Program-made: the position numbers and the translations under genes
Shown: in pieces, positions 41,690-56,947 of the stretch
Layout: each line of letters begins with the position of its first letter
Numbering within the stretch: the first letter of the stretch is position 1
Notes under the pieces: generated by a model
The model's database searches: none
Told to the model about the DNA's origin: nothing
The model's input: only the letters and a program-made list of their open reading frames with translations
NCBI RefSeq assembly: GCF_949628265.1
Contig: NC_088787.1
Coordinates: 4,392,501-4,456,500, forward strand
Source: Cloeon dipterum
Taxonomy: Eukaryota; Arthropoda; Insecta; Ephemeroptera; Baetidae
Direction of reading: 5' to 3'
Length of the DNA stretch: 64,000 nt

Positions 41690-44243
41690 ATGACTCCTTT
41701 TTTCGTCATAATTTTCTGGCTCGGCATTTCTTCCCTGGCCACCGCCAGCACCAACTTCACCCTAGTCTACGAATGGCCCGATAAATGGGACTACGAGTGG
41801 CCTTCCGAGGCGAACTGGACAGAGGAAGGGTGGGGCGAAATTTTCTATCCAGATATCACCGAGCCTAAATTCATGGCTCTCTACGGATCAAGGATCTTCT
41901 TCGTTATTCAAAAAAATGATGCCATTCCGGTGAGTCTGGTGTCTTTGCCGACGACCAGTGCGTCCCCTGCACCCCCGAAGCTCACTTCGTTTCCCTCGTG
42001 GGACATGCATGTAAGTAACTAAATTAATAAATAAATTGTGTACTATTTAAAAGGGGAGAGTTTTTGTGAATCTGCAAATAGAATAATGCACTGTGCTCTA
42101 ATATCTTAATTAAATTTTTAACAAGGACACAATAATTAATATTTAATGAGGTGGCAAAGAACTTAAAATATTTTGGAAATCGTTTCTTGGAGATGAAAAA
42201 TATAGTTTTTCTTTGCCAAAGATTTTCCTTTTGATCTCAAAACCAGATTTATCAGGTTCAGTGCAATTAAAATAAACTGACGGAGAAACCCCTGATTTGT
42301 TGAGCGTCATTCGTAATACTGGTCACAAATTTCAAGTTTTGTTTGCAGAAAAGCCGTGACGTCATGTTAAAATCTAAAATTTTAAGTTTGGCTTCGTTTT
42401 AAAAGACAAATCAATTCCCTGTTCTGCAGGAATTTGGAAACTGCAACAAAATTGAAGTAGCAAAAGGGCTGGAAGTGGACTCTGTTGGAAGACTGTGGGT
42501 TCTGGACAACGGTAGCAAGAAATGCAATTCCAAAATATTAACTATTGACCTTACCAACAACGATCAACCCAAACTAATTCATCAGTTTTCTTTTTACGGC
42601 GACATGCAAGACTTGGTTCTCGACAAAACGCCAAACGAAACCTTTGCTTATATCTCGCGGTGGTATGAACAAAACATTGTCGTCTTTAGTTTGGAAAGAA
42701 ATCAATCTTGGACGGTGGGCACGCCAGGAATCAACGTTTTGTCCATTGCCCTTTCCCCAAAGGATCAGGAACCGAGACAACTCTACCTTGGCCAATGGAA
42801 CTCCAATAAACTGCATTCGATTTCCGTTGACGCACTTCGCAGTGGAACTCAAACTACAAATCCAAAATTAATCGGAAATTGGTCTGCAAAACCTTACAGA
42901 ATGCTGATGGACAACCATGGGATCATTTATGCCAATTTTTTCAACAGAAACTACATAAATTCTTGGAACACTTCCCAGCCATTTCTGGAGCAGCGATTTT
43001 TTGAGGTAGGTCACCAATTTAAAATATCATTTGAAAATAATTAATTTCGTTATAATTTTCCTCGGGTTTATGTAACGAGTATTTGGATCCTCTTTAAATT
43101 TATTCGTCTACTGAAATATTTCGCGATTTGACCACTCCGCTAATGTGTGAGCGTGTCCTCAGCCTCGATCCATATTTCTACATGGGAATTCGTGCTCATC
43201 GAGACCGTTCTTTGCTTGGTTTTAGATCGATGAACTGGAACTTTTTTTGCCATTTAATATTGCCTTGAACCAAAATGGAACTATTTGGGTGACGGCGATT
43301 GATATAATAAAAGAAAAGCCAAGATACAGGCTTTTGAAGGCTGCGGTCGGTGAACCATCCTTCGAGGACTCATCAGGTAAGTTTTCTTTAGTGAATTTTG
43401 TATAATTATAGAGGGAATCCAATTGATTCAACAATCCTGCTTTCATCAAATTTACTTGAAAATATATTCTTTGTGGACATTCTCTGTTCACTCAGCACAT
43501 TCCATAGGCTATGATGAGTTGAATTTGTCCTAATAAAACCACCGGGCGGATAAAATTTGGCCTGAATGGCTGCTGAGGATCTTGGGCCCAATGTGGCCAT
43601 CGTTTTGCCTCCTCTTTTCTTCAAAGCCACTGGATAAGTGCGAAAAACAGCCCGTTTAGCTAATTGAGCATTTGCAGTCTCTCAAGTAGCCACCTTTTGC
43701 CATTTCTGACATTGGACAGCCAGTAGTATATCCCCGAAACAATCCAATAGCTCCTTTTTCTTTTCATTGTAGGAAAAATATTGGAGCACTTATTCCTTTT
43801 ATTTGAGCTAAAATAGCAAATTCTTTTTTAACATAAAATATATGAACTTAATTTTCCCGTTGCTGTTGGGACTTGGGACTCTTATTTAACTAATATTTAA
43901 AATGTCTGTAAGCTTATCATTTCCATTCACAGTAAAATCTTCAACGCCTGATGAGAAAAATGCTTCAACCGAGGTGCAGGAGAGCAGCACACAGACAGAT
44001 AAATTACACCAATATCGGCTGTTTATCGTCATTCTCATCTGCTCCAACGTATTTACCGTGATCCTGTTCATTTTGATCATCTTGAGACAGAAGACGAACA
44101 ATTCGATTCCGCCAAACACCAAGGAGGCCCACAAAACGACTATTTTTCAAGACAAGTCTGTCAAATACCACAAATTCCACGATAGCGTCAATTCGTTATA
44201 CTCTTCTCCTGATCTAGAAGCAGTCGAAATATCACAGAAATAA
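41690..44243 (+). CDS. Yellow/MRJP-like protein 3 with C-terminal membrane anchor (about 452 aa)
   Basis: Exons are 41690-42010, 42430-43005, 43226-43376 and 43933-44243, totalling 1359 bases (453 codons), with the same phases as gene 2. The signal peptide is MTPFFVIIFWLGISSLATA. The Yellow/MRJP domain includes YEWPDKWDYEWPS, GLEVDSVGRLWVLDNGS and AYISRWYEQNIVVFSLER. The last exon gives a short polar stalk, a hydrophobic helix at about 377-400 (LFIVILICSNVFTVILFILI) and a 50-residue cytoplasmic-like tail. The helix shares NVFT with gene 2, while stalk and tail have diverged, which argues that the anchor is ancestral and under selection. Confidence 0.85.
43540..43740 (-). repeat. SINE-related repeat in last intron of Yellow-like gene 3
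   Basis: It shares gccactgga.aaggtgcg-like, ccgtttagc..attgagcattt and gccatttctgacattgg stretches with 5450-5560, 36390-36490 and 47455-47480. Orientation follows the copy at 5220. Confidence 0.5.
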
Positions 44244-44539: not shown

Positions 44540-44812
44540 AGAGAGATACGTTTGTTTCGCTGGAGGAGATTGGCTGGTGCTGCCTCTGTGCGGGCGACAG
44601 TTGAACTTACAGCGGTGACACACTTGCTACAAAAAGTCTAACTCGCGACTCGCAAGAGGCGACACGGAAGCCAGCCAGCAGCACCGCGCGTTCACCACAC
44701 ATGAGCGATAAGCGGCGGCCGCGAGTCGCGAGTGTTTAGTTCCGCGCGGCGACCAGCGAGTTGCTCTCTCTTACAATTGCGAGGGAATAAACAGCTGCCC
44801 TGATCTTGGTAA
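44540..44812 (+). repeat. Promoter/first-exon module, copy 1
   Basis: The module runs from ggctggtgctgcctctgtgc through cgcgagtcgcgagtgttt and gttgctctctcttacaa to ctgccctgatcttg|gtaagt. It resembles 45640-45835 and the real first exon at 46730-47035. A consensus splice donor is present but no start codon in frame with exon 2 is obvious. It could be an alternative non-coding first exon of the caspase-NACHT gene. Confidence 0.55.
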
Positions 44813-45639: not shown

Positions 45640-45835
45640 TTGAAACGAAAATGTGCCTCGTAAGCCGCGAGAGGCGAAATGGCAGCAGGGGCACCGCGCG
45701 TTCACCACACATCAACGAACGATAAGCAGCTGCCGCGGGTCGCGAGTGTTTGCGTCCGCCGCGCCGACCGGCGAGTTGCTCTCTCTTACAACTGCGAGGG
45801 CATAAACAGCTGCCCTGATCTTGCTAAGTTGAATG
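45640..45835 (+). repeat. Promoter/first-exon module, copy 2, with broken donor
   Basis: It is similar to copy 1 up to ctgccctgatcttg, but the next bases are ctaagt instead of gtaagt, removing the GT of the splice donor. It is therefore unlikely to work as a spliced first exon. Confidence 0.55.
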
Positions 45836-46445: not shown

Positions 46446-47016
46446 TTATAGGAAAGAAACTCATGAGATAAAAAAACGATTTTATTTTGTCATTGCATCG
46501 CACCTGTAAATCAGGGGAAAAATTGTGCAATTCGAGTTTCGTTCGACCGGAATATCCATTTATTTCTTAGCTTTGACGGTCAGGCATTTAATTTTTTGGC
46601 TACGCTTGACCAAGCTTATAAAAAAGGAAACAAATTATTTTAATAAGAATTTACTTTAAGGTTTTAGCGTATAAAAGAAATCAAAAAATGTCAATTAAAT
46701 GTTGTAGGCGCACGGTGAGAAAAGTCTTGTTCGCTGGATGAGACACGAGACTGGCTGCTGCTGCCTCTGTGCGGGCGATCGAGTGACGAGAGCGAAAACA
46801 CGTGCATCGCTTTTTTAAAAATAGAAAGTCCAGCGAAAAGTCTTACTCTCGCCTCGCGGGAGGCGAATCGGCAAGCAGCCGCTCCGCACGCACGACACTT
46901 CACAGATCGCTGCCGCGAGTCGCGAGTTTGCTCCTCCGCGCGGCGACCGGCTAGTTGCTCTCTCTTCAAATTGGGAGGGCAGCTGCCCTGAACATTTTCC
47001 TGAGTTCTCCGACTAG

Positions 47017-50000
47017 ATGGCAGATCAACTACAAGGTAAGGCAATTGTTTTCAGGGTAAATTTGCAATTTACTATAATCGTCACTTGAAAAGTAATATTA
47101 TAATTACTGAGTCAACGGGTTTTGATATCAACGCGAGGTTAACTTGAATAAAAGGCAGATATATATAATAACCTTTTTCCTTAAAATTAATGTATTGGAC
47201 TTTCTGTAAAGTGCTCATTGTCAGAAAATATATATAAAAAATTATTCGAATTCACATTTTATTCGTCATGCAAAATTTTTCCTCTTTAATTTTTATTTTT
47301 CCCCTAAACCGTTGCTCAGCAAATCCCGTGGGGTCCCAATAACACGGATTGTATGGGGCCCAAGCGGCCGCAGGGGAGCTTGGGCCTAATCGTGGCCATG
47401 TTTTTGAATCCCCGCACCGATGTATTTTTCTGAAACGGCACGAATTCGTCCGAAAGCCACTGGAAAGGTGCGAAAAAAATTGGAGCATTTCGAATAGAGG
47501 TCTGAGCCACCCAATTTTTTCCGGCTGCTGGCTAATACACCGGCTTAGCCGCCTAAGTCTGGCGGCTGCGGCGGCTCGCCGAATATTCTCGGTAAATAAA
47601 AACGGCGTTTATGCAATTGTATTCGCAGCATTAAAATACCATCCAGCGGCTCGCAAAAACCGGCAGCAGCTGGCTCAAAAATTGAGCAAAAAGGCTCACT
47701 CATTGTCAGACCAGAAAAAGAAACAGCCCTAGCTGATACCTCCCTCTGCTTCGCCACTCGAGAGAATGCCGTCGTTTTTGCGAAATAAAAAAATGTTTGT
47801 CGTCCGCTGTTATTAATTACGATTAACGGGGGGCCATGAAATCGGTTCTTAGACTTTTCTTGCACGTGCGTTGCTCCCCATCGGTCGACCCGCCGCGTGT
47901 GTGATCGGCGAATATGTGACAGAAATAAAACTTCACCACGCCACTTTAATAAGGCGGTATTCTTTTTGCGGGGGTTGGGGGCGACGGGGGTGGCAAATTC
48001 GCCTATAAAACGCAGAATTTAACAGCGATATCATTTTTTGGCGATATTAAAATTAGGGTTTTAAATTAGTAAAATCATTTTTCTGTCGCGATTCTCTTCT
48101 GATACTATTCTGATCGATGAAAAGTGACTGTAAACCGAATTTGAAAAATTCCGGGCCGATAAGTGAATTACGGCGGAATTTTTAAAAATTCGGATTTTGC
48201 ACTGATGGCAATTAGGGTCGGCGCAAATGCGCGCGTGGGCGCCGCGAAGCCCCTGGGCAATTTCTTTCGATTTTGGCAATGGAATCAGTACGAGGAAGTC
48301 GAAAGACGCTCAAATCTCGATTTACAGCAATTTCGCTTTGCTGAAATTAATTTGTTTGCGTGTTTTTGGGGCTCGCACATGAGTGTGTGTGCCGTTCTGT
48401 GAGCCAGCAGTGATTAAAATGGATTTAAATTTGGCAAAATTCGATTGTTCGTGCTGTCGTCGACTACAAACCATCATTCGACAGGGCTCGCGAAGGGCTT
48501 CGACCTAGCTTGCCCAAACGACCTTTCTCAGGGTTCCGCGACCTGAGATCCTTGCCGGTTCCGAATTTTAATGAAATTTTGGTCAGTTTGAGCATATTTG
48601 AAGGTGCTCGGTGCCGCCACCAACGACATTCCTAAGGTTGTATACCCTGAAAACTGTCATTACGCGGTTTTGCCTTTTCCGGCGTCTCTTTCGGTTTAAT
48701 CGTAATTATTATTGCTTGTTTTAAGCGGATTTCGCACACGCGGAGCGGTGCAGCGTTCTCCTTGCTCGCTCGCAAATATATCTTTTTAATTCGACCGTTC
48801 ATTGTATTGTTGACCACGACCCTCCATCAGACGCGTCTCGCTAAGATCTTTCACCTGGCAAACCGAAACGACCTTTTTCACGGTTCCACGACCTGAGATC
48901 CTTGCCGAGGCCGAATAAGAGTTTTTTTCGCGTTTTCTGGTGTGCGCCTCCTTGGGGCCCTGTGCCCCTTACCTAAAAACAGGTTGAAACTATTACCCCA
49001 GTCGAGAAAACATCAGTTACCTTCAGTCGAGAGAACAATAATAATTTATCCACGACCTTGGAGGTAATTAGTGGTTTTCACTGATTTTTTTCAGAGAAAA
49101 TGCCTGACGGGCCAGCCAAATTAGGATATTTCGTGTCGAAAGACCAACAAAGAAAAAACGCAGACAAGTATGAACATCGTGGAAATTATCCGACATAATT
49201 TATATAAAACCTGAATTATTAGTGTTTGCGTGCTCGTCGTTCACTACAACTTTGAAAATACCAATGACGAATCCTGGATTCGGGAAGGCGATGCTCAGGA
49301 CGTAGAGAATCTGGAAAACACCTTCAGAGTGAACCGGAACTGCAACTTCTGCAGTTGGTTGTCACCAGAAAAAGGGAAGTTGCTTGAACTTCTCTCCGAT
49401 CATGAAAAATTATTAGGAAAATTTGGCTGTACAGGTAAAATAACGAAACAATTGTCGAAGAATGTGTTATATCGTATCGATTTTACGGATTTTACAGATG
49501 TTCCATCAGTGTTTATGCTTTACATTCTTTCTCACGGTGACACAGATGGAAAAATCTTCACAGACCACTGCCAGAGCAAAGACCCAAACGACTTTACTTG
49601 CTTCACAACAACGGAGATATTCGAGTCTCTGAAAATGCTGACTGGTTTCGAGGATTGCCTCAAATTAATAAACTTTGGTGTAAGGCTCTGCTTTCATCAA
49701 TTAGACTTGTATTAAAACAATTGATTTATAGCCATGCAGAGGAGAACTGATAGACGCACTCTTTTACGCAAATGACGAAAATTTCAAGAACGAAAATTCT
49801 TGCCGAATTACCTACAGCCCTATGATGAGAAACACGGCTGTGTTCTTCTCAACAGTCGAAAGTAAAGACTGATATAAATAAAAATTTGATTCTCTAGCTC
49901 AATTGCAATATATTTCCCAGCGACCAAGGCCAAACGAGACCAGAAAGGAACAACATTCGCCTTCTTTATGTGCCAGGTCTTAGATTCGCTTGAAAAGGAC

Positions 50001-53000
50001 GAGAGTCTCATAAATGTCCTGACATATATTCAAAATGAGAGTCACAAAGTTGCGATTAAAGAGAAAAGTGGACAAACTCCCGAAGTAAAGGTGTTTTCTC
50101 AGGACAGAAGTTTTGTCTTCTCAAAGTGAGTTTTCGTGATCTAACAGGAATTAGGGTTTAAAGAGATATAAAAATATGATTAATTATTTGTTTCAGAATT
50201 TCTGCAAATGACTCATCTTTCTCGACAGTTGAAGCAAAGAGTATCAAAATTAAAAGCAAACTCGAGTTTTACTCTTGGAAATCAAGTTCAGGGGAAAACT
50301 TGCGACGCCGCCTTGCGTTCCTAATTTCCGCAACGCCTAATGGGCAATTCAAAGAAATTAAAAGAGCATTGGCCCAAAACCTAGATTTTGAGACCAGCGA
50401 AAGAATGCTGAGAGGAAAGCCGTGGATGTCCATAAATGAAGGTTTTTCTACTTAATTATATTGAAATACTGGAAAAAATGCAATTCAAATTTTAGCCTCG
50501 AGGCTTGACTCCGATATTGGCTGCATTTTCCTTATCTTTTTTGGCCTTGTGAGTGAAAACAAGGAGACGAATGAGGTTTGCGTAGAAGTGGACGGTAAAG
50601 ACACTACAATATCTGAAATACTGCGAGAGTTTATCGGGCCAAAAAACGACCAGTGGATAGGAAAACCTAAAATATTATTCCTTGTGAATCAGGAAACGAG
50701 CTCGTCTGACGCCGTAAGTGATTTTTTATTTAATTTATTTCTATTTAATTCCAAAATATCTGGCAAATTAAAAAAATGACATTTAAGTAACTCTCACCGT
50801 ATTTGTTTTAAAAAGATCGGAAAAATGCAGTCTAACATGGAAATATCTGCAACAAATCACAGTGGATGGTTAGTCCTAGTTTTGCACAACAAAGGTAATT
50901 TTTTAACTACTCCAAATCACTAACGAGTTGCAGTATTTTTTAGACAGGAAATACATTTTTATCTTTTAGATGGACTTCAAAAGCTGATCGAAATCTTCAA
51001 GGGCCAAGAGCTGAAAAAGGAAAAAAGTCTTCAAGAACTGCTCGCAAGTCTTCTTATTTCCGAATCAAAAGAAAATAAGGATTTTCTTAACTCGACGCTC
51101 CAGTATCCTCTCAATTTTCCAGACTGGCCAAAGTCTTTTGTTGAACTTAGCTTTTCAGTTACAAATTCTCAAAAAAATAAAGAAAATTACGACTGCCTCG
51201 ACAGCTTGGTGAAGGAATCAGCAACAAAAAACAATATTTGTCTCTTGAGTTCAGTCGCAGGAACGGGAAAGACGACAATCCTCAGGGAAATGGCTTTTCA
51301 ACTCGGGAAACTAGATCCGGATTTACAAATTTTACGTATTTCACTCCCGAGAGTTTCGTTTGGCCCTTTGAAGAGGAAAGTGACCGAGTTTGATTTTCTC
51401 GTGAATGCCACTCATATTTCGAAAGAGGAAATCTCAAAGCAGATAGAAAACAAGCAGTGTGTTGTGATTCTTGATGGGTTTGATGAAAACCGTCGTGAAA
51501 ACCAAGAAAAAGTATTAAAAGTAATCGAAGCTCTAGAAAAGAAGCAGATTTCCATTTGGATCGGAACAAGACCTCACGCAGCAGAAGCAATTAAAAAGCG
51601 GATATCAAACGCTGTTTTAGTAAATATTAATCCCTTGAATAAAAATCAGCAAATCAAGTTGCTTCAGCTGGAGACCGGCAAGAGTCGAGAAGATTGTGTA
51701 TTATTCATCAAGAACTTTTCATCAGAAGATATCTTGAAAAATCCCTTGCACCTTTCTTTGGTTGCCAAGTATGGGGCCGAAGGAAACTTGTACCAAATCT
51801 ACGACCAGGTTGTGCGACAAAAAGTGGAAGACTCTCTGATCAATAAAGGATTTGACAAAGACAATGAAAACATATTTCCCGGGTTATTCGACGAAGCTTT
51901 GAAACGTCTTCAACAGATAGCAAGTTGCCACATCACAGAAGTTGAACTAAATGATGCCACAAGAAAAGAGCTTGAAAAATTCAACTGCTATGGCATTGCC
52001 ACGTTTGAAAACAATAAGGTTATTTTCATTCATCAAACTTTCGCTGAATTTCTTGCAGCCCAGCATTTTCTGCTTGAAATCGATGATGTTAGCGAAAGTG
52101 AATCCCGAACCAGTGCTGAAGATGTTGCAAGTGTATTTAACGTGCAATCATCATCGTGGTGCATAGAGTTTGTCGATTTATTCTATTCCACTAACGAGGA
52201 AAAGATTGAAGAGGACAGGACATCAATTCTTACAGTCATGAAGCTGAATCCTGATAGATTTTTTAAATTGATTGTTAACGGTGGTTGTATTAATATCTTC
52301 AAAATGATTTATCAAAATATCTGCTTCAGTAACAACCGAGAGGGTAATTGTATTTCTGTTGCAAAGGATAAGACTCTTTTGGTCGAAGCAATCGATGGTG
52401 CGGAAGAAATTGCAATCCTGCTGCTCGACACGGACTTGATCAACAGTGATGAAGAGCTGCTTACAATTTTACCTTACTTGTTGAAGTCAGTTGCTGAATC
52501 AAACGCATTTCTCTTCTTTGAGAAGCTGAAGACAAAATATCCTAGATTGCCAGAGATGATCCACTCAAAAAGATTTGTAATAGATGCTGGAGTGGTTGCA
52601 GCAGAGAAAAATCACGGTGAAATCCTTAATCTACTCCTGCAAAGCGGTGTCGACGTAGATTTTGTAAAAAGATGCGGACCAAATGAAACATTTTTTACGA
52701 AAATGGAATTTGGAAACGCTCTTCATTGTGCCATTTGGTTTCAAGCATTTAAAAGCGTGGAAATTTTGCTTAAGCATGGTGCGAGATTGGCCATAGATAT
52801 AAATGTTGACAGTTGGGACCCATTGATGGTGGCTGTACAAGCAAATAACCTAGACATGGTCAAATTGATATTGGAGGAAAATATCAGTGGACTGCAACGC
52901 AACAAAGACACTTTTGAAATCAATGAAGTAAAATCAGATTTGAATGTTTTACATTATGCTATTCGAGAAGGGCGCAAAGAAATTGCAAAATTTTTACTAC

Positions 53001-55669
53001 ACAAGAGTCCTAGTTTGAAAAACGTGGAAAATGGCATTGACGGAAGTCCTTTACAAATTTCGGCTATAAATGGAAATTTAGAAATGTGTCGCTGGCTTGT
53101 TGACGAAGCAGGGGAAGACGTGAACACTTTACGACCAAGTGGAGAACCAAGAGATTGGTCATTGGACGACAATAAATTCATGGATTATTTCTTAATTCTG
53201 CAGAAGAGTGACATTAACATGACAGACGAAAGAGGAAAAACTGCTCTTCACTGCGCTGCGGAACATGGATACCTTGAACGTGTCCAGGAGTTGATCCATT
53301 CTGGCGCAAATGTTCAAGCTGTGGACGAAAATGGATGGAATGCTTTTCATTTTGCTTGCAAAAGCAACAGTGACCGAAAAAAAGAATTGATTCAATTGTT
53401 GCACACCACTGATAGTCTGCTAGCCAAGGAGAAAACCGGAAGTGGTCAAACAGGGCTGCATATTTCTGTGGAATTCAGAAAATTCTACTCGGTTAACTTT
53501 GAAAGTTTTCTGATCGAAGAGATTGGAGTTGACGTAAGAGCAAAGAACAACAAAGGCTGCACTGCGTTGCGAATTGCAGTGAGCAAAGGAGATGAAAAAT
53601 GCATTGACTATCTGATGAAAAAAGATATCGACCTGGAAGTCGAAAACTATCTGGGGCAAACGTGCCTGCATTTTGCAGCTGAAAGGGGTGATTTAGAGGC
53701 TCTGCAAACTTGGATAGAAGTGGGTGGAGACTTCAATGTGGTTGACAAAGAAGGGATGACTGCGTTGCATATTGCTGCTGAAAGCGGACATTTGCAATTT
53801 GTGAAAAAGTTTTTAGCCTGCGCTGCTGAAGAAGCCAAAAATCCATATATTGGTGAAGGTTCTGTTGGATCCACACTGAAAGAGTACGGAACAGTGAACA
53901 GATGTGACATAAAAGGAAGGACAGCACTGCATCTGGCTGCTGAATCAGGAAATGTTGATTTGGTGAAATTGTTGCTTGAAAATAACGCAGATTTAACTCT
54001 AACGGACCTGGAGGGAAAGAATGCAATCCACTTCGCTTTTGAACACATAGGAATGTTACAATTCATCAATGAGAAGAACAGAAATCTTGTGAAACAGCGT
54101 ACAAAAGATGAAAACACAATTCTACATTTTTTGGTATTGTCCTCTGCTAATAGAGAAGAGTGGGATGAAATCGCTCCGTGGATTATAGAACAAGTAGACG
54201 ACACAATTTTAAACGCGAAAAATGCTGCTGGCGACACACCACTCTTACTGGCTTGCCAAACCGGGGTGTGGAATGTCGCCGAATTGCTGCTGACCAGAAA
54301 TGTTGGTATCAATGTCGCGGACTGGTGTGGAAAAACTGCATTGCACTACGCCGCAGAAAAAGGAAACTTGAAATTAGTGATGCTGATGCATGAGAAAGGT
54401 GCGGATTTGACTCTAACAAACGACGAGGGAATGAACGCTTTGCACCACGCAACGAGACACTTTGAGATATTGTTATTTATTCACGAGAAAAACAATGATT
54501 TGTTGAAGCAGAGGTTGGAAAATGGAGACACAAGCCTCCATGTGGCAACAGGACCGTTGCCCAGTAACTCTGACGCAATTCTTTGGCTCGTTGAGCAATG
54601 CGAAAATGACTTGAACGAAACAAACAGCAACGGTGAAACACCGTTTCTGCTGGCTTGCAAGCGGATGAAATGGAATTTTGCTAAGATTTTGCTGGATAAA
54701 AACGTCGATATAAATGTGAAAGATAAAAATGGAAGAACGGCCCTGCACTACGCCGTTAGTTTGTTTAGACGCGATATAATTGAAGATTCATATGCTTATG
54801 ATTTGGTGCAAGAGTTGTGCAAAAGAGGTGCAGATTTAGCTTTGACAGACAACGACGGAAAGAACGCATTTCACCATGCGATAGAGAACTTTAACATGGC
54901 ATTATTCATTCATGAGTTGAATGGTGATTTGGTTAAACAGCTTTTGAACAATGGAGATACCTCTCTGCATCTGGCAATCAAATTGAACAAAGACAACCGG
55001 AATGATAAGCTCATTATTTGGCTTGTTGAGCAAGGCGTCGTTGATTTGAACGCGAAAAATGCTTCTGGCGAAACACCACTCTTACTGGCTTGCGAAAGAA
55101 GGTGGTTGAAGGTCGCCGAATTGCTGCTGACCAGAAATGTTGAGGTCAATGTCTCGAACAGGCGGGGAAAAACTGCAATGCACTACGCCGCAAAAAATGG
55201 AAACTTGTCTTTAGTGAAGCTTTTGCACGAGAAAGGTGCGGATTTGACTCTATCAGACAACGACGGGAAGAACGCTTTTCACCATGCGATAACAAACTAT
55301 GACATGGCGTTATTCATTCATGAGTTGAACGGCGATTTGGTTAAACAGCGTTTGAAGAATAGAGATACCTCTCTGCATCTGGCAATCAAATTATACAAAC
55401 GCAACAAGAATGATGACGTTCTTAATTGGCTTGCGGAGCAGGACGTCATTGATTTGAACGTGAAAAATGACTTGAACGAAACCCCGCTGATTCTGGCTTG
55501 CAAGAAGAAGCTTTGGCCCTGCACATTTTTTAAAATACTTATGTCTAAAAATGTGGATGTCAACATAAGAGACGTTAAGGGGAAGTCTGCTCGTGACTAC
55601 ATTGACGATTCTTGTCCAACTCATTTACTTCGAAGGTTTGATGAACTTGAAGAAGCGTCACCCAGCTAA
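47017..55669 (+). CDS. Caspase-pseudocaspase-NACHT-ankyrin protein (about 2020 aa)
   Basis: Exons are 47017-47035, 49095-49167, 49223-49434, 49498-49679, 49732-49861, 49921-50125, 50197-50441, 50496-50713, 50816-50894 and 50970-55669. They total 6063 bases (2021 codons) with all phases matching. Residues about 28-273 form a caspase-like domain: His114 in ILSHGD, Cys164 in GPCRGE, and a p10-like part with TTFAFFMCQVLDSL. Residues about 274-500 are a second caspase-like fold (GKPKILFLVNQET) with both catalytic positions replaced. A NACHT NTPase follows, with Walker A SVAGTGKTT (Lys555), Walker B VVILDGFDE (623-627) and sensor WIGTRP. From about residue 990 to the end is an ankyrin array with four long supra-repeats. 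The architecture resembles NLR-type immune sensors, with a caspase in place of an adaptor domain. No signal peptide, so cytosolic. Sensing and death signalling are inferred. The 2-kb first intron holds repeats. Confidence 0.88.
47315..47705. repeat. SINE-related piece joined to GC-rich repeat, in first intron
   Basis: 47315-47480 matches the element at 5310-5460 (gggtcccaataacac, attcgtcc, ccactggaaaggtgcg). 47490-47705 matches 6800-6910 and 5784-5880 (gaggtctgagcc, tggcggctgcggcggctcg, ggctcgcaaaaaccggc). The two repeat types are also neighbours near 5200-5880, so they may be parts of one longer element. Confidence 0.55.
48450..48960 (+). repeat. Two GACGACCT-family copies in first intron of the caspase-NACHT gene
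   Basis: Copies at about 48450-48650 and 48808-48960 share aaacgacctt.tca.ggttcc and cgacctgagatccttgccg. These two resemble each other more than the other copies, suggesting local duplication or a subfamily. Confidence 0.65.
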
Positions 55670-56947
55670 TAAATGCGAGTGAATTAAAACCGCTATATCT
55701 TGTTAACGCTCTTTTTTTGTCCTAATTTAGCACATTTTTGCTTTTCTTGCTCTAACAATTGATCCCTTCATGCATCGTCACCAGTGTAAATGAGGACTGA
55801 GAATGAATAATTCATAATTCACTCTTTAATTTAAGCTTGAAAGTACCAGATGAGCTAATTATATAGATTTCCTGGTGTTTTCTGAGATGGAATCATATTT
55901 TTAAAATAGAATTTAATTATAAAGTGCTTTATGAATGTAAATATTTAAATAAATTTCAATGACTAACATTTTCACACGAATCGGTAATTTATTTTGGACA
56001 TTATTAGGGTAATATGTATGAAAAATGTATAGCACCGATTTTGTCTGTTAATTAATTACAAACATAATTTTTAGTTTCTGTACTATACTGGCGTTTAGGA
56101 ATAAATAAACTGGAAGCGTTATTCAATAGAATTTGAAACGCTTGTAAATTGTTTTTCAAAAAATAAAGTATTCTCTTTGTGATACCTGTGCATTTATTTT
56201 GCAATATGAATCAATTAATATTCATTATGCAGAATTCCTGTTAATTTTTTTCAAATAGATGAAACTGCTAAACATACGTGCAGCAAATATCTCTATCCAC
56301 CAAGAAATCTAAAAATTAATTCAATTTCTATTACAATCAATTCCTCGAAAATTAAATACATGGCTCAGCTTTCAACGCGAAAACAGCTGTTTCCACACTC
56401 TCATCTAGTCTCGATTATCCTGAAGGTGGTGTGACAATTTTGGAAGGGAAACCAATTTTGATTTTCCACTCAGCCACTGATTTCAAGAAGCCACTGTAAC
56501 AAGAAGCAGTTTTCACACTCCCAGCTGGACCGACCTTGTCGATTGCCCTGAAGGTGGCGGGGAAGTGCAGCAGGCAATCAGGCTTTAATCACGAACACTC
56601 AAAAACCTTTGGATGTAACCGTGGGTGCATCTAGACGCGACAACACGACACTTTCTTGGAAATTGATTTTACTTGGGTAACTATGTAATTTTTAACTCTC
56701 GTCCTAAGAGATCAAAGTTAAGTGTTTGAGTTTTTAAAGCGTCTTATTCCTTTCCCCCATCAGCTCAATGTTTCCTGTGTAAATTCATTCGTCGAGGGAA
56801 GGTTATTCAATGTTTGATGGATAGATCGTTGATAAGCACAACATTGTCTGCAATGAATCCATCGACAGCCATGGATGAGAGATTGAAAATACTGCTCTCA
56901 GTTATGTTCCTTTATAATGAGGTTTTTATTTGTTCGATTCCTCCGTG
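55670..56947. other. 3' flank of the caspase-NACHT gene
   Basis: Several AATAAA signals (about 55950, 56100 and 56160) are possible polyadenylation sites. At 56400-56580 a short segment (tcgattatcctgaaggtgg against tcgattgccctgaaggtgg) is repeated once, about 145 bases apart. No gene is supported. Confidence 0.45.

Follow-up and report, generated by a model that had tools for sequence, protein, structure and literature searches.

Caspases are activated by proximity, NLRC4 and Apaf-1 oligomerise on nucleotide exchange, and cFLIP serves as a dimer partner for caspase-8. A 2024 survey (PMC11508797), in which NLRs are defined by a NACHT plus leucine-rich repeats (LRRs), describes arthropod NLRs as being without an N-terminal effector domain and the NLR as absent from Drosophila, and considers inflammasomes possible in every NLR-bearing phylum but Arthropoda. 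Here we describe a gene at 47017–55669 on the forward strand of a 64,000-nucleotide window of the mayfly Cloeon dipterum (NC_088787.1, positions 4,392,501 to 4,456,500; part of contig C2, of 37,456,129 bases, in the 190 Mb genome), whose predicted product carries in one chain a caspase, a pseudo-caspase, a NACHT and an ankyrin array. By sequence comparison it appears to be one of about 100 loci with the caspase–pseudo-caspase–NACHT build, with ankyrins where these were looked at. On balance we think it probable that such proteins are single-chain NLR-like receptors, in which an ankyrin sensor and a NACHT switch would drive proximity activation of a built-in caspase.

Gene model and domain architecture

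Ten exons, placed by hand at GT-AG sites, join in phase into a frame of 2,020 residues without a stop, and the domain-coding exons span 49095–55669 (domains assigned with Pfam and PDB profiles). The features that carry the architecture are, in window coordinates:

49223–50125, + strand: caspase domain 1, p20 and p10, exons 3–6 (Pfam PF00656, PDB profile)
49223–49434, 49498–49679, 49732–49861 and 49921–50125, + strand: exons 3, 4, 5 and 6 (gene model)
49533–49535, + strand: codon of catalytic His114 (LSHG), the His being shared by all 46 aligned relatives
49732–49746, + strand: start of exon 5, PCRGE, with catalytic Cys164 at 49735–49737, C in 45 of 46 relatives
50197–50441, 50496–50713 and 50816–50894, + strand: exons 7, 8 and 9, coding for domain 2, which continues into the start of exon 10 (gene model)
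50231–51151, + strand: caspase-like domain 2 without His/Cys, limits approximate (PDB profile, alignment)
50970–55669, + strand: exon 10, which encodes NACHT, winged-helix region and ankyrins without interruption over 4.7 kb (gene model, Pfam)
51260–51274, + strand: Walker A, GTGKT (gene model, family columns)
51470–51487, + strand: Walker B, LDGFDE (gene model, family columns)
51563–51574, + strand: sensor motif, GTRP (gene model)
52904–55576, + strand: ankyrin array of about 20 repeats, limits approximate (Pfam, motif)

In the paralogue L034, introns 2–9 lie at matching places, with GT-AG junctions and in the same phase as in the window gene; intron 1 alone differs, by a shifted acceptor. 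A sequence-only reading of the window had proposed a single continuous set of phased exons, an intact His114/Cys164 dyad in a first caspase domain, a NACHT with Walker A, Walker B and sensor motifs, and a long ankyrin array, and all of these hold. The predictions support this architecture well.

Caspase domain 1

On the spliced sequence of the window, Peptidase_C14 (PF00656) scores 38.9 bits against a Pfam cut-off of 21.4, and a profile of nine family members matches caspase-3 in the PDB with an E of 3e-15, this effector caspase being the closest among the PDB sequences. As a single sequence, the window caspase finds no caspase in the PDB, its sole match being PCNA (E 0.0078). Domain 1 has a caspase fold with p20 and p10; a structure-prediction check, set beforehand by the sequence-only reading, gave a caspase fold for a family relative without ankyrins (AlphaFold2, Foldseek). 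The His/Cys dyad is kept in 81 of the 84 family segments that span both sites.

The active site reads GPCRG, not QACRG, and therefore lacks the QACXG pentapeptide: the Q place holds G in 81 of 94 segments, with 7 gaps and Q in one. The first arginine of the S1 pocket is R in 77/94 segments (13 gaps); the second, which the alignment places only to within one residue, is R in 55/94 and T in 25/94. We believe that GPCRG may reflect an altered P1 choice. Mayfly caspases at six other loci include QACRG (L036), QACRC (L041) and QASNG (L037), the remainder being intron-cut or unclear. GPCRG may resemble the non-canonical motif of Dronc; a literature search for Dronc with PFCRG found nothing.

GPCRG and the variable second arginine suggest a changed specificity, and would suit a signalling protease with shifted substrate choice, whose outcome would be immune gene induction rather than death. 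Dredd is such a signalling caspase in insect immunity, and an uncontrolled search gave no gasdermin match. Since the caspase 1 profile lies closest to effector caspase-3, we regard this alternative as possible but rather unlikely.

Caspase-like domain 2

An 11-member profile of domain 2 matches caspase large subunits in the PDB; the two best are reconstructed ancestral caspases (4e-8 and 6e-7), natural caspase-8 matches at 5e-5, and the match covers the p20 half only. In the protein database the profile finds only four dipteran caspases (best E 1.7e-5), the family members themselves falling outside the length limits of the search. The order of secondary-structure elements in the AlphaFold2 model of a relative fits a caspase, by inspection. 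With the catalytic places set by the PDB profile alignment, the His place in 46 relatives is occupied by Q (14), E (13), K (8), P (6) or another residue (5), and the Cys place by Q (26), V (9), T (8) or another residue (3), so that neither H nor C stands at a catalytic place in any of the 46. The sequence-only reading was right to call this a second caspase-like domain, and left the loss of both catalytic residues unremarked. From profile and model, we take domain 2 with good but not full certainty to be a pseudo-caspase that has lost its dyad. A duplication of domains 1 and 2 from one another is not claimed, hhalign having given a probability of 0.5% and no similarity.

The missing dyad of domain 2, together with the Cys-to-Ser change in the caspase 1 of the predicted family member P0043, could mean that most caspase domains of the family are catalytically idle scaffolds, kept for oligomerisation. 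The dyad of domain 1 is retained almost throughout the family segments (see above), and we consider idle scaffolds improbable. P0043 also has DGFDQ at Walker B, and is likely an inactive copy, judging by these substitutions.

NACHT switch and ankyrin array

The window sequence matches NACHT (PF05729) at 34.3 bits (Pfam cut-off 26.7) and has the Walker A, acidic Walker B and sensor arginine of a STAND NTPase of the NACHT clade. A NACHT plus winged-helix fold was obtained for the relative P0078, with NLRC4 and NOD2 as the closest solved folds (AlphaFold2, Foldseek). Ank_2 (PF12796) reaches 400 bits in 14 stretches of the window sequence, the motif G-x-T/N/S-x-L/F/M occurs 18 times after residue 900, and the best 60 PDB entries for the whole-protein A2 profile are exclusively of ankyrin type. 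Matches in NCBIfam, to bacterial ankyrins with scores well under the cut-off and weakly to a NACHT antiphage entry, were not used.

By Pfam, LRRs are found neither in exon 10 of the window (E≤0.1) nor in six family proteins (E≤0.01), and no CARD, PYD or death domain is found in the N-terminal part of the window gene or in six relatives. The whole genome holds one CARD match (E≤0.001; C3:11478003–11478242), with none in any control genome, in line with there being no need for adaptor recruitment. With neither LRR nor death fold predicted, the window gene falls outside the strict definition of an NLR; it is an NLR-like build with a protease fused on.

An expanded family in two mayflies

The sequence-only reading had treated the gene as a single oddity, which the genome contradicts. 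NACHT matches lie at 101 loci, 86 of them with an open frame of at least 600 residues, and queries with the caspase 1 exon that carries the His and with the middle exon of domain 2 give 112 and 115 genome matches, respectively. Both caspase exons lie upstream on the same strand at 93 of the 101 NACHT loci (within 7.5 kb for the caspase 1 exon and 4.5 kb for the domain 2 exon), domain 2 alone at 5, and neither at 3; the opposite-strand control, made for the caspase 1 exon only, gives 0/101, and the median distance from this exon to the NACHT is 1,965 bp. The co-location count omits seven split rows, and the genome counts are lower bounds. Caspase 1, domain 2 and NACHT are all present in 19 of 20 fully read loci, the other (L016) having none of the three; L025 was read only from the Cys exon onward, where its sequence piece ends. 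The domain 2 matches form blocks. On C4, a contig of 36.4 Mb, 46 of 47 lie past the 29 Mb mark; C2 has 30 of its 35 at 0.7–4.8 Mb, and C3 has a block of 14 at 8.2–8.7 Mb. Two of these three blocks are near contig ends. At C5:22152946–22154043 (minus strand), the match to the domain 2 exon and that to NACHT each come with an open frame of 1,180 residues, and the introns between them may have been lost there.

Among 5.8 billion proteins, residues 20–770 find 67, every one under the name Cloeon or Neocloeon triangulifer; scoring covered the 7,989 candidates with the most words in common. A profile search (7,992 candidates scored) finds 71 proteins, of which those with a caspase family are again from these two mayflies; a beetle, a tick and a fungus contribute NACHT-ankyrin proteins that have no caspase. 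For one of these, P0090 of Zophobas morio, the precomputed Pfam list includes a tyrosine-recombinase family. Both mayflies belong to the Baetidae, and a restriction of the family to the Baetidae is not implied, the mayfly coverage of the database limiting what the matches can say.

The mayfly proteins form 88 clusters, which do not equate to genes as Cloeon is in the database from more than one annotation. In 72 of them caspase 1, domain 2 and NACHT occur in order with none repeated, and the remainder are partial, repeated or joined models. In a midpoint-rooted tree of 46 chosen members, 25 from Cloeon form one clade (support 0.999) and 18 from Neocloeon another (0.997), while P0049, P0050 and P0052 make up a mixed group. 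Because of the species clades and the mixed group, the build seems to predate the Cloeon/Neocloeon split and then to have been amplified in each line. Some predicted members have extra N-terminal parts (SLC6-type in P0013; in P0034 and P0043, a stretch of about 200 residues or longer that precedes the caspase), and P0036 is listed with other Pfam families; these could be model errors or real fusions.

All of the joined proteins are predictions, and models such as P0013, with its SLC6 part, and P0001, with several units, look over-joined, as they would if caspase genes and NACHT-ankyrin genes were separate neighbours misjoined by gene prediction. We hold this to be very improbable indeed, given the conserved phased junctions in L034, the continuation of domain 2 into exon 10, the same build in gene models of two species, and the close co-location at 93 of 101 NACHT loci. 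The claim that a protease is fused to a NACHT sensor, with ankyrins at the C-terminal place, is strengthened by the last two of these.

The species-specific expansions and the blocks near contig ends (on C4 and C2) could also indicate a self/non-self or selfish-element system, with an expansion that reflects genome conflict and not pathogen defence, and NACHT proteins do act in fungal incompatibility. Immune receptors just as typically grow in clusters by birth and death, and we think genome conflict quite improbable as the explanation.

Constraint along the protein

For a single pair, the window gene and L034, the ratio of nonsynonymous to synonymous substitution rates (dN/dS, Nei–Gojobori) is 0.37 for caspase 1, 0.30 for domain 2, 0.41 for NACHT, 0.69 for the linker and 0.58 for the ankyrins. 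Domain 2 is thus constrained although its dyad is lost, which fits a putative regulatory role. The part after the NACHT has a higher dN/dS than the NACHT in 35 of the 35 pairs, among 19 loci, that passed the dS limit (medians 0.71 vs. 0.40), these pairs being overlapping and not independent. A faster-evolving ankyrin end fits a predicted sensor, and may also reflect relaxed constraint.

Start of translation and upstream leader

The remaining features of the gene are its ends:

46780–47060, + strand: conserved upstream leader (promoter/5′ exon region) that contains exon 1 (genome matches)
47017–47035, + strand: exon 1, probably untranslated (inside the conserved leader, with conserved splice donor)
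49095–49167, + strand: exon 2, with possible start ATG at 49100–49102, MPDGPAKLGYF... (gene model, compared N-termini)
55683, 55948, 56100, 56162 (56162–56167) and 56351, + strand: AATAAA/ATTAAA polyadenylation-like sites 3′ of the stop (motif scan)

The sequence-only reading had begun translation in exon 1. The leader and splice donor of this exon are indeed conserved, but in L034, which keeps the donor GTAAG, a TGA directly follows the matching ATG. Among 24 compared N-termini, the predicted proteins P0002 and P0003 start at the exon 2 ATG, and most of the others begin in a different upstream coding exon. On these comparisons, exon 1 is probably a 5′ leader, and a start at 49100 is tentatively preferred over one at 47017 or in another exon.

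The leader has 36 genome matches, all on C2, 23 of which lie less than 10 kb upstream of a same-strand NACHT locus (6/36 in the downstream same-strand control); random placement in 0.79–4.7 Mb gives a mean of 1.26/35 and a maximum of 6 in 2,000 draws. A leader match accompanies 17 of the 34 NACHT loci on C2. Because its matches concentrate upstream of NACHT loci, the sequence looks like a leader or promoter travelling with part of the family. Part of it is repeated in three copies 5′ of the gene (44715–44785, 45730–45800 and 46909–46979), which may be alternative starts or duplicated promoters. The long first intron contains a 129-nucleotide repeat in two copies (48438–48566 and 48788–48916, 74% identity), and a small open frame at 43890–44243 has, by eye, a hydrophobic, transmembrane-like stretch.

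Proposed mechanism

In their order, the domains follow the NLR plan of effector, switch and sensor, the protease itself being the effector. In the single-chain receptor that we favour, the faster-evolving ankyrin array would detect or guard a ligand, upon which the NACHT (STAND) ATPase would open and oligomerise, as in NLRC4. This assembly would bring the N-terminal caspases close to one another and turn on caspase 1 by proximity, with the adjacent pseudo-caspase as a ready dimer partner in cis, as cFLIP is for caspase-8. Active caspase 1 would then cut itself or downstream proteins, leading to cell death or immune signalling. Catalysis, cell death and immunity are what we infer from the domain content.

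Several points weigh against this proposal. The joined proteins are predicted gene models; the exchange of the S1-pocket Gln for Gly in GPCRG and the variable second arginine mean that neither activity nor Asp specificity is assured; and caspase 1 and domain 2 are not evident duplicates (hhalign negative), the cis dimer being a guess. Furthermore, the ankyrin dN/dS is below 1, so that positive selection is unsupported, and the search without a gasdermin match had no positive control.

We see about an even chance that mayflies have amplified about 100 inflammasomes of one chain each, every one with its own caspase and a cis pseudo-caspase and in need of neither adaptor nor separate protease, and that this is the first effector-bearing NLR-like family to be described from an insect, diversified per species. 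Mayflies are an early branch of the winged insects, and a family of nearly 100 genes in which protease and switch are fused would, if it works as its looks suggest, contradict the conclusion of PMC11508797. It would offer a one-gene system in which to ask whether NACHT oligomerisation alone drives a caspase, whether a pseudo-caspase activates its neighbour in cis, and how a large receptor repertoire in the germline is managed by insects.

Comparison with known systems

Literature searches of open-licence PMC articles found no description of the mayfly family. In the paper on the Cloeon genome (PMC7250882), a term search of the main text finds none of "NACHT", "caspase" and "ankyrin", and no caspase–NACHT–ankyrin protein is named in the accessible portions of PMC8260672, PMC11797021, PMC3196919, PMC9815663 and PMC8195603.

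Like caspase-3/7/8 and CED-3, the mayfly caspase has the p20/p10 fold, the His/Cys dyad and the first S1 arginine, but its motif is GPCRG where theirs is QACRG, a prodomain of the death fold was not found, and a pseudo-caspase and a NACHT follow. Pseudo-caspases of the cFLIP type likewise set a dyad-less caspase-like domain beside an active-looking caspase, whereas the mayfly domain is in cis on the same chain, is very diverged, and has no death effector domains that we could find.

Receptor domains fused directly to a caspase, so that adaptors are bypassed, are described in the accessible text on the amphioxus LRR-caspase and TNFR-caspase fusions (PMC2575513), a text that names neither NACHT, ankyrin nor pseudo-caspase. 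For sponge NLRs, the legend of Figure 2 in PMC12909245, on NACHT-LRR proteins, lists CASc, which suggests caspase–NACHT combinations elsewhere in animals. Bacterial caspase–STAND conflict systems (PMC7159879) are described, in the text available, with an N-terminal caspase-like peptidase on a STAND-type NTPase, but they are prokaryotic and of other NTPase clades, and a common origin is unshown. Among arthropods, the proteins of Zophobas (P0090) and Ornithodoros (P0095/P0096) also have a NACHT followed by, or joined with, ankyrins, but a caspase is absent from their precomputed Pfam lists.

In plan, the mayfly protein parallels inflammasome-type NLRs such as NLRC4 and NOD2, which share the NACHT plus winged-helix, an effector at the N-terminal end and a repeat sensor at the C-terminal end. 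It differs from them in that no LRR and no CARD, PYD or death domain was found, with a caspase as the effector and ankyrins for LRRs. NACHT/STAND receptors as such are known; to judge by its predicted domains, the mayfly family adds to them an insect system that is NLR-like, expanded and equipped with its own effector.

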